Assembly: GCF_014836935.1 (NCBI RefSeq)
Contig: NZ_JACSPW010000014.1
Coordinates: 1-64,000 of the forward strand
DNA: 64,000 bases
Direction: 5' to 3'
From: Solibacillus merdavium
Lineage (GTDB): Bacteria; Bacillota; Bacilli; Bacillales_A; Planococcaceae
The position numbers and the translations under genes were made by a program. This document shows, in pieces, positions 15,176-58,133 of the stretch. How positions within the stretch are numbered: the first letter of the stretch is position 1; each line of letters begins with the position of its first letter. A model generated the notes under the pieces. The model saw only the letters and a program-made list of their open reading frames with translations, did no database searches and was not told the origin of the DNA.

Positions 15176-15493
15176 TTAGAAGTTGTTGTTATTACGCTTA
15201 TTAAATTGTTGGTTGCGTTGTTCTTGCTCACGGTTTTGCTTTTGGTTTTGGCGTTGAACTTCATTAAAATTCAACTCTTGACCAAATTCTTCGTTATTGT
15301 TTTGTTGGTTTTGGTTGTTTTGGTTGTTTTGCTTTTGGTTCTGGTTTTGATTTTGGTTTTGGTTAAAATTATTAAAGTTTAGATCTTCACCAAATTCCTC
15401 ACGATTGTTTTGGTTGTTTTGGAATTGGTTTTGTTGGTTTTGTTGGTTATTACGGTTTTGCTGGTTATTACGGTTTTGTTCATTTCGCTTCAT
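15176..15493 (-). CDS. sspE: Gamma-type small acid-soluble spore protein SspE
   Basis: The 105-residue protein is built almost entirely of Asn, Gln, Glu, Phe and Arg. Two copies of the block EEFG(E/Q)(D/E)LNFN are separated by QN-rich linkers. This is the signature of gamma-type SASPs, amino-acid stores in the spore core degraded at germination by GPR protease. The ATG follows GGAGGTGA by 7 bases. A sigma-G-like promoter lies just upstream. In B. subtilis sspE also lies between mutY and ygaC. The highly repetitive codons create a long antisense frame that is not a gene. Confidence 0.92.
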   Translation of the reverse strand: MKRNEQNRNNQQNRNNQQNQQNQFQNNQNNREEFGEDLNFNNFNQNQNQNQNQKQNNQNNQNQQNNNEEFGQELNFNEVQRQNQKQNREQEQRNQQFNKRNNNNF

Positions 15494-41999: not shown

Positions 42000-42011
42000 G
42001 AACAGTCGGTT

Positions 42012-42112
42012 TCTATCCACATCCCTACGCAAGTGCTAACTTACAGGTTCAAAGAGTCAGTGCAATTACGTGCACAATCTCAGCCGACTTACTCGGCTCC
42101 CCTTGTGGTACA
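42012..42112 (-). ncRNA. TPP riboswitch (THI element)
   Basis: On the minus strand the aptamer shows the conserved blocks ACAAGGGGAGCC, GGCTGAGATTG (the CUGAGA box), GACTCTTTGAACCTG and GCGTAGGGATGTGG. TPP binding would favour the downstream terminator and switch off thiT. Confidence 0.96.
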
Positions 42113-42230
42113 TCTAAATAAATATTGTTTGAACAAATTAATTGTATCGAATATTTTTCCAACTTTCAACAGACGATTTTTTTGTAACTAAATTCTAGAC
42201 CGTTCGTATACATACAAAGGAGTGAATGAA

Positions 42231-51443: not shown

Positions 51444-53090
51444 ATGTCATTTTCTAAAAAGTCGCTATGGATGCTACTTCTTACATTTACACTTGCCCTT
51501 GTGTTAGCTGCATGTGCTGGTGGAGATGATTCAGAAGATACATCAAAAGGCGAGGACACTGGAACTGAAACAAATACAGACTCTAGTACGAACGATGATG
51601 CAGCTTCAGAAGGTGGCGGTGATTTAATTATCGCTGAATTATCTGATGCTCAATCACTAGACCCACACGGATCAAACGATGTTTCTTCGTCAAATGTACA
51701 ATCTAACATTTATGAAACATTAGTAAATCGTGATGCTAACGGAGAATTAGTTCCTGGTTTAGCAGAATCTTGGACTCAAGTTGATGACTTAACATGGGAA
51801 TTCAAGCTTAAGCAAGGTGTTACTTTCCATGACGGCGAAGCTTTCAATGCTGAAGCTGTAAAAGCTTCTTTCGACCGAGTTTTAGATGAAAAAGTTGCGT
51901 CACCACGTGCTTTCTTATTTGAAATGGTTACAGAAGTAAAAGTAATTGATGATTCAACAGTTCAATTCGTAACTGAATACCCATTCTCACCATTACTTGC
52001 ACACTTAACGCACAATGGTGGTGGTATCATTTCACCAAAAGCAATTGCTGATGACTATGCTGCAATGGAAGCTGATTCTTCTGTAGCTGCTGGTTCAGTA
52101 ATCGGTACAAATCCAGTAGGTACTGGTCCATTCAAATTCGTTTCTTGGACTCCAGGTACTGAAGTAAAATTAGAAAAGTTCGCTGACTATGCAGGAACTC
52201 CTGCACACGTTGATACGGTAACATTTAAAGTAGTACCAGAAGGCGCTACTCGTGTTGCTGAATTACAATCAGGTTACGCTCACATTATCGGTGCCGTTGA
52301 GCCTAGCCAAGTAGCAAACGTAAATGGTTCTGACGGCGTTTCAGTTTTAGAAACTCCATCGTCTTCTTTAACTTATGTAGGTTTCAATACACAAAAAGCA
52401 CCATTTGATAACGAAAAAGTACGTCAGGCGATTTCAAAAGCAATCGACCGTGTTACTTTAATCGATGGTATTTATGAAGGATACGGTATTCCAGCGATTT
52501 CCCCATTATCTCCTGGTATTTTCGGATACACTGAAGATGTAACATCAATGGCTTACAACTTAGACGAAGCGAAAGCTTTACTAGCTGAAGCTGGTTATGC
52601 AGATGGCTTCTCAACAACAATTTGGACGAATGATAACCCAGCTCGTCAAAATGTTGCGATCGTATTACAAGAAGGCTTAAAACAATTAAACATCGATGTT
52701 AAGATCGAAGTTTTAGAGTGGGGCGCGTACTTAGAGAAAACAGCTGCTGGTGAGCACGATATGTTCATCTTAGGTTGGTCTAATGCTACTGCTGATGCAG
52801 ACTACGGTCTATATGCATTATTCCACTCTTCACAACATGGTGACCCAGGTAACCGTTCATTCTACTCAAGCGAAAAAGTGGATGAGTTATTAGATAAAGG
52901 TCGTCGTGAAGCAGATCCAAGTGCTCGTGAAGCAATCTACAAAGAAGCATTACAATTAATTTCTGACGAGTCGCCAATGGCATTCGTATTACACCCATAT
53001 ACATTAACAGGTGTATCTGATAAAGTTTCTGGCTTCAACGTAGGAACTGACAGCATTTACCAATTACGTGACGTTAAAATCAGCGAGTAA
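51444..53090 (+). CDS. Peptide-binding lipoprotein (family 5 SBP), OppA/DppE/GsiB-like
   Basis: The 548-residue extracellular receptor has a lipoprotein signal ending LAAC (Cys24), an acidic Ser/Thr linker (25-55) and an SBP_bac_5 domain with SLDPHGSND, GLAESWTQVDD and VTFHDGEAFNAEAVKASFDRV. It resembles binding proteins annotated for dipeptides or glutathione. The codons are strongly biased (many GTA, TTA, GAA), which suggests high expression. GGGGGG precedes the ATG. It is divergent from its presumed permease/ATPase operon. Confidence 0.87.
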   Translation: MSFSKKSLWMLLLTFTLALVLAACAGGDDSEDTSKGEDTGTETNTDSSTNDDAASEGGGDLIIAELSDAQSLDPHGSNDVSSSNVQSNIYETLVNRDANGELVPGLAESWTQVDDLTWEFKLKQGVTFHDGEAFNAEAVKASFDRVLDEKVASPRAFLFEMVTEVKVIDDSTVQFVTEYPFSPLLAHLTHNGGGIISPKAIADDYAAMEADSSVAAGSVIGTNPVGTGPFKFVSWTPGTEVKLEKFADYAGTPAHVDTVTFKVVPEGATRVAELQSGYAHIIGAVEPSQVANVNGSDGVSVLETPSSSLTYVGFNTQKAPFDNEKVRQAISKAIDRVTLIDGIYEGYGIPAISPLSPGIFGYTEDVTSMAYNLDEAKALLAEAGYADGFSTTIWTNDNPARQNVAIVLQEGLKQLNIDVKIEVLEWGAYLEKTAAGEHDMFILGWSNATADADYGLYALFHSSQHGDPGNRSFYSSEKVDELLDKGRREADPSAREAIYKEALQLISDESPMAFVLHPYTLTGVSDKVSGFNVGTDSIYQLRDVKISE

Positions 53091-55264: not shown

Positions 55265-56497
55265 TTATTTCTCCTTTTTCTTACTGAAAGTCATACCTTT
55301 TTTATTTGTCTTTGGCTGATAAGACTTTTTCTCTGTTGCTTTCTTTACTTCGGGAGCCGCTTTTGATGAAACTGTTTTTGCATTTCCCTCCACAAGCTGC
55401 CCTTGAGTCCATACTTTTTGAACACCTTTTAATGAAAGATCACGCAACCATTTTTTGAAAGTCTTTTCATCTTTATAAGATAATAATGTTAATACTTCTC
55501 CATCTGCTCCTGCACGACCTGTACGGCCCGAACGATGTGTATACTGCTCAATTATACGTGGAACGTCGACATGAATAACATGTGTTAATCCTGAAATATC
55601 TAAACCTCGTGCCGCAATATCTGTTGCGATTAAAATGCGTGCTTCCCCTTTTCTGAAAGCATCCAACGCTTTTTTACGTTCGTCTTTTTTCATATCTGAA
55701 TGAAGTGCTACAATTGGTGCATCGCGATATTCCAACTTGTTTTGTTTCATTAATACTTGGTCAATATTATTGACGAATGCCAACCCGCGTAATCCTTCAA
55801 TATTAGCAAGACGGCGAAGCATCTCTGTTTTGTCTCGTTCCTCTACTTTTACAAAGGAGTGAACTACTTTACCGAACTTCACCATATCTTCAGGCTTAAT
55901 TTCTATGCTGACTGGCTCGAACATTAAGCGTTCTGCTACAAGCTTTATTTCTTCTGTAATCGTTGCAGATACTACAACGACTTGACGACCGAATGCCGCA
56001 TTTTCTATAAATGATTTTACGACAACGCGGTATTCACGACTTAATAGCTGATCGCATTCATCTAAAACAATTGTTTCTATTTCTCTAAGCTTTAATTTAC
56101 CTTGGCGAGCCAATTCATTTAAGCGACCTGGTGTCCCGACAACAATCGTTGGCTTTTTCTTTAATTTTTCAATTTGACGAGCTGAGTTTGCCCCACCGAT
56201 CAACTGTTGGACAGTAATATCTGTTCCAACTGTCCAATCACGGATAACTTCAACAATTTGCATTGCAAGCTCTTGTGATGGTGCTACGATCAACGCTTGG
56301 GTTTGTTTCTTTTTTCCGTCAACTTTATTTAAAATAGGTAATGTGTAGGCTAATGTTTTTCCTGAGCCTGTTGGGGATTCTGCTACGATATCTTTCCCTT
56401 CAACCATCGCTGGAATCATTTCGTCCTGAATTTTCATTGTCGTTTCAAACGACCATTTATTTTGAAGTGTTTCGTTTAATAAACTGATTGCTGACAT
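55265..56497 (-). CDS. DEAD-box-family RNA helicase with DECD motif (YfmL-like)
   Basis: The 410-residue helicase has two RecA domains. Motifs seen: Q-motif region TTMKIQDEMIPAM, motif I SPTGSGKT, Ia PSQELA, GG, Ib TPGRL, motif II DECD (not DEAD), III SAT, ATDIAARGLDI and VI HRSGRTGRAG. The C-terminal tail (about 370-410) is Lys/Ser-rich. Length fits small helicases such as B. subtilis YfmL, involved in ribosome assembly; orthology is probable only. First gene of a three-gene operon. Confidence 0.85.
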   Translation of the reverse strand: MSAISLLNETLQNKWSFETTMKIQDEMIPAMVEGKDIVAESPTGSGKTLAYTLPILNKVDGKKKQTQALIVAPSQELAMQIVEVIRDWTVGTDITVQQLIGGANSARQIEKLKKKPTIVVGTPGRLNELARQGKLKLREIETIVLDECDQLLSREYRVVVKSFIENAAFGRQVVVVSATITEEIKLVAERLMFEPVSIEIKPEDMVKFGKVVHSFVKVEERDKTEMLRRLANIEGLRGLAFVNNIDQVLMKQNKLEYRDAPIVALHSDMKKDERKKALDAFRKGEARILIATDIAARGLDISGLTHVIHVDVPRIIEQYTHRSGRTGRAGADGEVLTLLSYKDEKTFKKWLRDLSLKGVQKVWTQGQLVEGNAKTVSSKAAPEVKKATEKKSYQPKTNKKGMTFSKKKEK

Positions 56498-56727
56498 ATT
56501 GTTTTACCACCTTTTATTCGTTGGCTTTAGTGTAACATATTCCGCAATTAATGCGTAAAATTTGGCGGAATGTGATTTGGTTGTTTACAGCAAAAAAAGT
56601 AAGGTTTGTGTCAAATTAAAATCGGTTTGAATTTTTCGTAATAAAGTTCAAATGAAAGAATCTATTTCGGTATGCTACCCTTTGTGTCTCATCTTTAGAA
56701 ACTTGGGGTGAAAAAGTTGCAAGGATT
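56498..56727. other. Upstream region of the helicase operon
   Basis: No gene is seen. ATTCCGC (56539-56545) and GCGGAAT (56565-56571) form an inverted repeat spanning a possible minus-strand promoter (-10 TACACT, about 56530-56535). A TTGACA on the minus strand at about 56609-56614 has no good -10. Confidence 0.4.
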
Positions 56728-56898
56728 TCTAATATAATCTGAAATCGTCTAATATATTTTTATTTGTTCTAATAAAATTGCGATTTTCTAATATGTCCTT
56801 TCGTTGTGCTAATAAAGGTTCGCTTTGTTCTAAAATCCCCTTTCACTTTTCTAATACCGGCCCGACTTTTTCTAATATCCCGCATTATTGTTCTAATA
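56728..56898. repeat. Nine-copy degenerate repeat TCTAATA with a period of about 21 bp
   Basis: The heptamer TCTAATA or a one-base variant starts at 56728, 56748, 56768, 56787, 56808, 56829, 56850, 56871 and 56892. Spacings are 20, 20, 19, 21, 21, 21, 21 and 21. The intervening bases are loosely conserved and pyrimidine-rich (for example TCCCCTTTCACTTT). There is no open frame. It lies between the thiolase terminator and the helicase promoter region. Confidence 0.85.
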
Positions 56899-56908
56899 AA
56901 AACATACA

Positions 56909-56945
56909 ACAAAAAAGCATGCCGGAAACTTTCTCCTAGCATGCC
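56909..56945 (-). terminator. Terminator of the thiolase gene
   Basis: On the minus strand GCATGC ... GCATGC with inner GGA/TCC pairing is followed by T6. Confidence 0.78.
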
Positions 56946-56951
56946 AAGTTT

Positions 56952-58133
56952 CTATACTCTTTCGATAATTAAAGCAATTCCTTGTCCGCCACCGATACAA
57001 AGGCTGGCAACCGCATACTTCCCATTTCGTCGTTGCAGTTCATATGCAGCGGATAAGATGATTCTTGTACCACTTGCACCTACTGGGTGACCGAGTGCGA
57101 TTGCACCACCATTTACATTCGTTTTCTCACGGTTCAGTCCAAGTTCCTTTTCTACTGCGATATATTGGGCTGCAAATGCTTCATTAATTTCAACTAAATC
57201 CATGTCTTCGATTGTTAGATTCGCACGCTCCAATGCTTGACGAATTGCCGGAGCCGGACCGATTCCCATAATCGACGGATCAACACCCGCTATTCCCCAT
57301 GATACAATGCGGGCTAACGGCTTTAGTCCTTGTCCATTTACAAAATCTTCACTTGCGACAACGACAGAAGCTGCCCCATCATTAATGCCCGATGCATTCG
57401 CTGCTGTTACTGACCCATCCTTTTTAAAAGCAGGACGTAACTTTGCCAAGCTCTCCCGTGTTCCGCCTTCTTTAATATGTTCATCCTGATCTATTAAAAT
57501 TTCGCCTTTTCTCGTAGCTACAGCAACCGGCACGATCTCTTTTGCAAAAGTGCCGTCCTTACGTGCTTTTGCGGCACGTTCATTTGAAAGAAGGGCGTAT
57601 GCATCTTGCTCCTCGCGAGAAATTGTGTACTGTTCAGCCAGCTTTTCTGCCGTTAAGCCCATTCCTGAACCTGTATACTGGTCAGTTAATGTTGCTTGAA
57701 GCATATCTGTAAACTCCAGGTTGCCTAGTTTCGAACCGCTAAAGCGTTGTTCGAAGTTCGAATATGGCGATTGGGACATATTTTCTGCTCCCCCAGCCAA
57801 TACTACATTTCCTTCACCTAGCTGTATCATTTGTGCAGCAGATATAACCGATTGTATACCTGATCCACATAAACGATTCACAGTTAAAGCTGGTACTTCT
57901 TTAGGAACACCTGCGTAAAGTCCAATATGTCGAGCTAAATAGGCTGAATTGGAACCAGTTGTAATGACACCCCCGTAAATTACATGGTCGACTTGTTCAG
58001 GCTGTACATTTGCCCGCTTTAACGCTTCCACTGCAGTTTTTGTACCAAGCTGTACTGCATCTGTTGTTGCAAAGGAACCCCCAAAAGCTGTAAATGCAGT
58101 ACGAGCCCCGTCTACAATATATACGTTTTTCAT
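56952..58133 (-). CDS. Acetyl-CoA C-acetyltransferase (thiolase)
   Basis: The 393-residue enzyme condenses two acetyl-CoA or cleaves 3-ketoacyl-CoA. Catalytic residues are Cys89 in NRLCGSG, the His of GHPVGASG and the second Cys in CIGGGQG near the C-terminus; NEAFAAQ is also present. The ATG follows AAAGGGG. It is 22 bases downstream of an acyl-CoA dehydrogenase, suggesting a role in short-chain fatty-acid or amino-acid degradation. Confidence 0.92.
   Translation of the reverse strand: MKNVYIVDGARTAFTAFGGSFATTDAVQLGTKTAVEALKRANVQPEQVDHVIYGGVITTGSNSAYLARHIGLYAGVPKEVPALTVNRLCGSGIQSVISAAQMIQLGEGNVVLAGGAENMSQSPYSNFEQRFSGSKLGNLEFTDMLQATLTDQYTGSGMGLTAEKLAEQYTISREEQDAYALLSNERAAKARKDGTFAKEIVPVAVATRKGEILIDQDEHIKEGGTRESLAKLRPAFKKDGSVTAANASGINDGAASVVVASEDFVNGQGLKPLARIVSWGIAGVDPSIMGIGPAPAIRQALERANLTIEDMDLVEINEAFAAQYIAVEKELGLNREKTNVNGGAIALGHPVGASGTRIILSAAYELQRRNGKYAVASLCIGGGQGIALIIERV

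Follow-up and report, generated by a model that had tools for sequence, protein, structure and literature searches.

REP and BIME elements are dispersed intergenic repeats in which the REP units are palindromic hairpins. Iteron arrays, in which direct repeats follow one another at about two helical turns, lie at plasmid and chromosome-2 origins beside a rep gene. LytTR-type sites are pairs of direct repeats, also about two turns apart, at promoters, and DNA uptake sequences are single dispersed words with lineage dialects. In marine Beggiatoaceae the heptamer TAACTGA forms direct repeats, with 2–6 copies per set in the genome described and mostly just upstream of start codons; a translational role has been proposed for them (PMC4679880).

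Here we analyse an array of short direct repeats in a 64,000-nucleotide stretch of Solibacillus merdavium DNA (contig NZ_JACSPW010000014.1, positions 1 to 64,000; the window). We consider it probable that this array belongs, as a single copy, to a dispersed family of putative protein-binding DNA arrays. No description of these arrays was found among the matches listed from the open literature, most subscription papers lying outside reach.

The nine-box array in the window

An earlier note on this DNA described nine TCTAATA elements, phased at about 21 bp, in a non-coding gap. Nine boxes of 8 bp are indeed present, all on the plus strand, but only seven contain exact TCTAATA and the other two carry a one-base change. 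The phase of about 21 bp is right, except that the first three steps are shorter (20, 20 and 19 bp), a shortness that is conserved in other copies. The features of the locus are as follows.

56727..56898, plus strand: nine-box array of TTCTAATA boxes with steps of 20, 20, 19, 21, 21, 21, 21 and 21 bp (shuffle control)
56727 TTCTAATA, 56747 GTCTAATA, 56767 TTCTAATA, plus strand: starts of boxes 1–3 (direct reading)
56786 TTCTAATA, 56807 TGCTAATA, 56828 TTCTAAAA, plus strand: starts of boxes 4–6 (direct reading)
56849 TTCTAATA, 56870 TTCTAATA, 56891 TTCTAATA, plus strand: starts of boxes 7–9 (direct reading)
56727..56793, plus strand: boxes 1–4 with the short steps of 20, 20 and 19 bp; the spacers flanking box 3 are the best-conserved spacers (column information, 73 nine-box copies)
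56828..56835, plus strand: box 6, the most variable box; TTCTAAAA in the window, TTCAAATA type with A as fourth base in 45% of the 73 nine-box copies
56911..56945, minus strand: A-run and imperfect hairpin (GCATGCC...GCATGCC), a possible thiolase terminator read leftward (loose scan; no call in the stricter scan)
56952..58133, minus strand: thiolase gene (PF00108, PF02803), right of the array
55265..56497, minus strand: DEAD-box helicase gene (PF00270, PF00271), left of the array

The word by itself is not enriched: exact TCTAATA occurs 18 times in the window against 14.3 expected, a count that is reached in 25 of 100 shuffles. Box-like sites form a chain of up to nine members in the window, compared with longest chains of two (78 times) or three (22 times) among 100 Markov shuffles. 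One outcome that the earlier note had named as fatal, equally phased runs arising at random, is therefore absent, since shuffled sequence gives chains of at most three. That the array is non-coding was also borne out; the sole ORF of at least 60 aa across it is a mechanical 94-aa GTG ORF, and the 19- and 20-bp steps are evidence against a coding repeat. The helicase and thiolase neighbours were found as claimed. The terminator placed between array and thiolase fared less clearly: a looser scan, run without a shuffled control, shows a hairpin and A-run soon past the last box, whereas by the criteria of the stricter scan the helicase–thiolase gap holds no terminator.

RNA folding of two overlapping 134-nt parts of the array on both strands gave z-scores of −0.61 to +0.85, and no Rfam match was found at the array. 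The earlier note had seen no CRISPR-like repeat, and this holds: the conserved part spans 8–13 bp inside a unit of 19–21 bp, compared with about 24 bp or more for a CRISPR repeat, and the spacers are inherited and drifting, unlike the unique, constant-length spacers of CRISPR loci. Bending by AT-tracts, one of the roles first suggested for the array, is improbable, since the box lacks any A4/T4 tract, relatives carry G+C-richer words at the same 21-bp phase and, by reading, TTCTAATA, TTCTATCC and TTCTATGAGCGC all lack tracts of A4+ or T4+ every ~10.5 bp.

Elsewhere in the window, a TPP riboswitch scores above the Rfam gathering score at 42005–42113 (minus strand). The plus strand at 15232–15480 is dense in G+T-rich tandem repeats with periods of 6, 9 and 18 (TTGTTTTGG), and short ORFs of either strand overlap this stretch. 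At 52892–52934 two copies of a 21-bp unit lie beside a minus-strand TCTAATA; since they are located inside a 548-aa ORF, they are probably a chance occurrence in coding sequence.

Dispersal and conservation of the arrays in Solibacillus

The pair pattern TTCTAATAN{11,15}TTCTAATA matched 76 times in the window's own genome (G000, Solibacillus; 3.78 Mb in 56 contigs), with 0 matches for the reversed control. All places with an exact pair were read (the window and 23 further stretches; arrays without an exact pair would escape), and merging of chains gave at least 25 arrays that are apparently intergenic. No chain lies inside a convincing gene, and five overlap an ORF of 71–127 aa. Nine boxes are found in 19 of the 28 single chains; in all 19 the third step is 19 bp and the distance from first to last box is 163–166 bp. 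For the close species G009, which has one main contig, we read 42 array groups around 48 matches of a 19-bp-step pattern, a lower bound because only the surroundings of such matches were read. Steps of 21 bp predominate there (319), followed by 20 bp (90), 19 bp (47) and 22 bp (1). Pooling the nine-box copies of three species (42 from G009, 12 from G003, 19 from G000), the third step is 19 bp in 72 of 73. Both the window array and those of G009 show the direct repeats at about two helical turns that characterize iteron arrays. Using the same 73 copies, an RNA hairpin model with the boxes as internal loops was tried and rejected (45 region pairs; top z 2.7, within the expectation for 45 tests).

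Some nine-box copies are followed by a second module, consisting of a linker of 71–72 or 81–82 bp and 4–5 further boxes. It is present after 23 of 42 copies in G009, 1 of 12 in G003 and 0 of 19 in G000, and at the helicase–thiolase locus it occurs in six of eight species, G000 and G003 being without it. The distinct linker lengths of G009 (38, 50, 71, 72, 81, 82 and 174 bp) cluster in helical phase (Rayleigh R 0.83, p ~0.008, n = 7), with the caveats that 38 bp is not near whole turns and that the lengths may share descent. A stretch of ~60 kb in G009 (2.68–2.74 Mb; L217–L219) holds six nine-box groups and one three-box chain, with layouts 9-4-4 (two) and 9-3-3 (one). Behind a nine-box array at L206 and L207 (G010 and G014), the linker and four-box module is tandemly amplified with a period of 144 bp.

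Matches between the most similar copies run essentially from the first box to the last, between unrelated flanks. The best pair in G000 is 84% identical over 176 bp; of the best pairs in G009, one is 88% identical along 321 bp and another 87% identical along 336 bp. These matches begin 0, 3 or 18 bp outside the first box and end 2–3 bp outside the last. Less similar pairs among the matches listed extend up to ~28 bp outside the array, and for the seven-box copy L161 the matches continue 49–50 bp beyond the last recognized box. The array was therefore moved or copied as one block that ends at or near the outer boxes. The best pairs thus share with MITEs their dispersed copies and sharp ends; the terminal inverted repeats of MITEs are missing, both array ends being boxes in direct orientation. 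Just outside the arrays there is, by reading, a weak GGATT/AATCC tendency. No clean empty site, on which a target-site duplication would be read, was alignable at the two sites compared, which include the L187 locus, and a comparison of 80 kb from four relatives and 60 kb from a fifth returned the orthologous array alone. In the 60-kb cluster of G009 the starts of the ORFs (first 50 residues) read as ordinary genes rather than an autonomous element, apart from one IS200-like fragment at its edge.

Many G000 arrays have an orthologue at the same place and in the same orientation among the fetched G003 or G009 stretches. Between orthologues the boxes diverge by 0.027 (G000–G003), 0.053 (G000–G009) and 0.062 (G003–G009), and the spacer middles by 0.203, 0.490 and 0.486 respectively; only pairs with nine recognizable boxes in both species were compared (10, 11 and 6), which favours conserved boxes. 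Divergence at fourfold sites of the helicase gene is 0.249 (G000–G003) and 0.435 (G000–G009, aligned), so that the spacers drift near the synonymous rate of one neighbouring gene while the boxes stay held. Steps are equal between orthologues in 77 of 80, 81 of 88 and 44 of 48 cases (202 of 216). Slow boxes together with equal steps indicate that selection acts on box and phase. Spacers of non-orthologous arrays diverge by 0.64–0.65, compared with 0.49 for orthologous ones, which shows that the arrays were inherited and not overwritten. Gene conversion or slippage could add to the uniformity of the boxes, yet orthologous spacers have not been homogenized. The suggestion that the array is a decayed minisatellite is contradicted by these data, the boxes evolving ~7.5 to 9 times more slowly than the spacer middles at orthologous loci; a neutral minisatellite should diverge uniformly along its unit (box 0.053, spacer 0.490 for G000–G009).

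At the helicase locus, seven comparisons gave divergences of 0.03–0.06 for boxes and 0.15–0.33 for spacers; the relatives were found via the gene, and the locus was chosen because G000 carries an array there. Of the 172 positions, 36 are missing in G003, and the G005 copy shows a 2-bp gap together with a short insertion. The earlier note had named absence of the array from this locus in close relatives as a second refuting outcome. This did not occur: the array is present there in eight species, the window's included, which are the closest by identity of the helicase. It is absent from the other eight genomes of the genus. Since units have been lost in some copies (in G003, and the second module at the window locus of G000), not every box is needed.

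With respect to genes, arrays are enriched in convergent gaps (15 of 42 G009 arrays vs. 37 of 204 control gaps, p 0.02) and depleted in divergent ones (3 of 42 vs. 50 of 204, p 0.012), the control gaps coming from 20 regions picked away from known arrays. A hairpin with a T-run lies within 110 bp on either side of 18 of 25 arrays in G000 and 33 of 42 in G009, by a loose scan without shuffled control. Arrays tend weakly to run antiparallel to tandem genes in G009 (17 to 7, p 0.06) and in G009 and G000 combined (25 to 12, p 0.047, loci partly shared), and this bias is absent from the tandem gaps of Ureibacillus (5 to 8, hand count). For arrays of the related words described below that lie outside ORFs, a gene stop faces the 3' side in 19 of 21 cases (15 of 17 once duplicate loci are removed, hand count). 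Replication polarity of the KOPS kind was not seen: with the G009 origin at ~0 and terminus at ~1.7 Mb by skew, 23 of 48 sites are co-directional and 25 contrary (hand count). No common function was seen among the array neighbours, few of which were family-searched. When Ureibacillus and Solibacillus array neighbourhoods were compared, 26 of 166 Ureibacillus ORFs had a protein match; recurring matches were YusW-like (4 of 9 proteins searched), alpha/beta hydrolase, MFS transporter and dehydrogenase, and none of the nine proteins searched among the recurring shared neighbours belongs to a DNA-binding family.

Array words in other lineages

Among 16 genomes of Solibacillus, TTCTAATA pairs match 61–410 times in eight, 10–13 times in three and 0–1 times in five. 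Only two further genomes among 261 in 19 genera are rich in them, G233 (44) and G243 (125), which are Ureibacillus acetophenoni and U. manganicus. Most arrays of these two species consist of four-box modules with 21-bp phase, linked by 40-bp steps to give a period of 103, and G001, G002 and G013 carry simple 21-bp arrays of 3–7 boxes. G011 has no TTCTAATA pairs, but by reading its helicase gap contains TTCTATCC-like boxes at 21 bp. This small TTCTATCC-type array (L066) lies upstream of the same helicase gene, with a far neighbour gene that reads differently, and it could be the same old array as that of the window with a changed word.

The TTCTATCC-like boxes of G011 led us to predict a second word, for which the family was then searched. 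The prediction held: among the 32 genomes of genus g8, 26 have TTCTATCC pairs at 19–22 bp (6–260 matches), and such pairs were also found in G007 (10), G011 (28) and seven others (1–4), with 0–3 matches for reversed controls. The two words exclude one another. TTCTATCC pairs are absent from all 13 genomes that carry at least ten TTCTAATA pairs, and TTCTAATA pairs in g8 amount to a single pair in each of two genomes. A generic pattern, with four TTCTA words spaced 21 bp apart, matches 85 of the 261 genomes, low counts meaning little because the reversed control was unclean in g2 and g13 (up to 21 matches) and a few others. Further words are TTCTATGAGCGCTT and TTCTATCTATTCA in g2 and TTCTACCGAAA in g4; G193, G197 and G224 (g17) and G256 (g18) were only counted, with 79–131 generic-pattern matches each. 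In the arrays printed the spacers vary between units, with few uniform exceptions. L290 and L295 (g8) are nearly uniform 21-bp tandem repeats of 13–14 TTCTA units, possibly young arrays or plain minisatellites. Exact 21-bp arrays are often open in one frame: among 54 of them (some loci counted twice), 33 share sequence with an ORF of 80 aa or more. Two such ORFs that were searched are an RNA methyltransferase and an antiporter; as their domains start well past the array part, the array is an upstream extension in both. The shared TTCTA, the phase and the mutual exclusion, on which the grouping is based, suggest that these dialects may be one system.

Outside the family, 6 of 130 sampled genomes of Bacilli match the generic pattern. 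G267 (13 matches, control 4, several uniform) is the sole possible case among them, and the other five read like coding repeats; the one relative of G267 compared has no generic-pattern matches. A four-box scan across taxa returned 34 stretches, 20 in the two Ureibacillus species, 2 in Solibacillus palustris and 12 elsewhere. The last group was rejected: five are in frames open over the array and 150 bp on each side, and six are uniform or near-uniform tandem units; the twelfth, L119, comes from the same Treponema MAG as L112 and its sequence was outside the six inspected. A phage origin was also considered and discarded, the 13 stretches from a pattern scan of IMG/VR comprising four in open frames, five with three boxes only and four at 20-bp steps (two printed, uniform repeats).

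Proposed mechanism, alternatives and related systems

Among the explanations offered at the outset, a phased array for a putative DNA-binding protein is the one that survives the tests. We propose that each box, in an extended form of about ATnTTCTAATAwm, would be one site, and that sites placed head to tail every two helical turns would allow a putative protein to assemble cooperatively along one helix face. Each box may take one protomer or dimer, so that a filament or multimer would build near the ends of transcription units. The arrays would have spread in the past as a unit of nine boxes, in some species with a phased linker and four more, settled mainly near transcription-unit ends, and now be kept locus by locus through selection on box and phase. 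Protein and box may have co-diverged into lineage dialects, recognized by one protein family, that share TTCTA and the 21-bp phase. The most likely role would be a nucleoprotein barrier at transcription-unit ends, limiting read-through or the spread of supercoils, or a nucleoid organizer; an insulating role would fit the placement in convergent rather than divergent gaps. More tentatively, the arrays may belong to a previously undescribed chromosome-organizing or insulating system of the Caryophanaceae, in which a fast-evolving putative DNA-binding protein acts on up to hundreds of phased boxes in lineage-specific words that spread as mobile arrays and were then kept by selection. If this is right, a bacterial family has an important DNA-binding protein that escaped notice, and the arrays are a non-coding DNA code with dialects: one two-turn array, written in lineage-specific words and selected at dozens of loci. 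The dialects would then show, as a natural experiment, how the specificity of a DNA-binding protein changes jointly with its many sites.

The main rival for how the arrays spread is a transposition complex. Here the arrays would be MITE-like, non-autonomous elements, their boxes the sites of a trans-acting multimeric transposase on tandem ~21-bp sites and their copies the remnants of bursts. Rather sharp copy boundaries at the outer boxes, dispersal to unrelated sites, patchy copy number (0 to 410 pair matches among 16 genomes of the genus) and lineage-specific words are all consistent with it. We nevertheless judge it unlikely, as it leaves the retention of boxes at each place unexplained: dead copies should lose boxes and spacers equally, yet the boxes are held at each locus. 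In addition, all boxes are direct and no terminal inverted repeat is long enough to name, the first 50 residues of the ORFs in the 60-kb G009 cluster reveal no transposase barring the one IS200-like edge fragment, and no clean empty site is readable at the two sites compared. The box/spacer rate contrast and the conservation of steps weigh against a neutral minisatellite, which the plain tandem look of the 3–7 box 21-bp arrays of G001, G002 and G013 might suggest, and words without A-tracts against an intrinsic curvature element; we regard an origin of either kind, with no binding protein, as very improbable.

There is only a slight chance that the arrays are decoys, that is, dispersed iteron-like sites that titrate an initiator of replication from a plasmid, chromid or integrative element. 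Sets of four or nine direct repeats spaced two turns apart do resemble iteron arrays, and dialects would mirror incompatibility groups. However, when three array stretches were compared with plasmids and one with phages by blastn, all matches were weaker than E 0.05 or lacking (BLAST being weak for 8-bp boxes), and the arrays that were read sit among ordinary-looking genes on contigs not typed as plasmids (around the few arrays of G001, G002 and G013, where a replication gene may lie, ORFs were listed by size only). We think it just as improbable that the arrays act after transcription, as sites for an RNA-binding protein or as a termination element. Many of them lie shortly past a possible terminator and would be part of any read-through RNA, but the window copy has neither fold nor Rfam match, spacers are not complementary to one another, strand bias relative to genes is weak, and helical phase kept across linkers is a feature of DNA; the hallmarks of a structured RNA family are lacking.

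As putative protein-binding DNA, the arrays can be set beside several described systems. They resemble REP and BIME elements in being numerous, intergenic and often adjacent to gene ends, and differ in that their boxes are direct and non-palindromic, with no hairpin and with free spacers, which places them outside that class. With iterons they have in common direct repeats, head to tail, at about two turns; iterons, however, lie at an origin beside a rep gene, and the arrays at dozens of dispersed intergenic sites. Like DNA uptake sequences they employ a short genome-wide motif with dialects, but uptake words are single and do not form phased arrays. Cooperative assembly of a protein multimer on direct repeats, as reported for BldC (PMC5859096), is the kind of binding that we propose. 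LytTR sites, treated in PMC6193735 and PMC4227749, have a similar layout of direct repeats on one face at ~21 bp. The likeness is one of layout, not motif, and LytTR sites are pairs at promoters whereas our arrays have 4–9 boxes at gene ends. The TAACTGA repeats likewise form numerous intergenic sets in which one heptamer is directly repeated, with a patchy distribution over taxa and no binder assigned; they are distinguished by their 2–6 copies, their placement at start codons and the other lineages in which they occur (PMC4679880).
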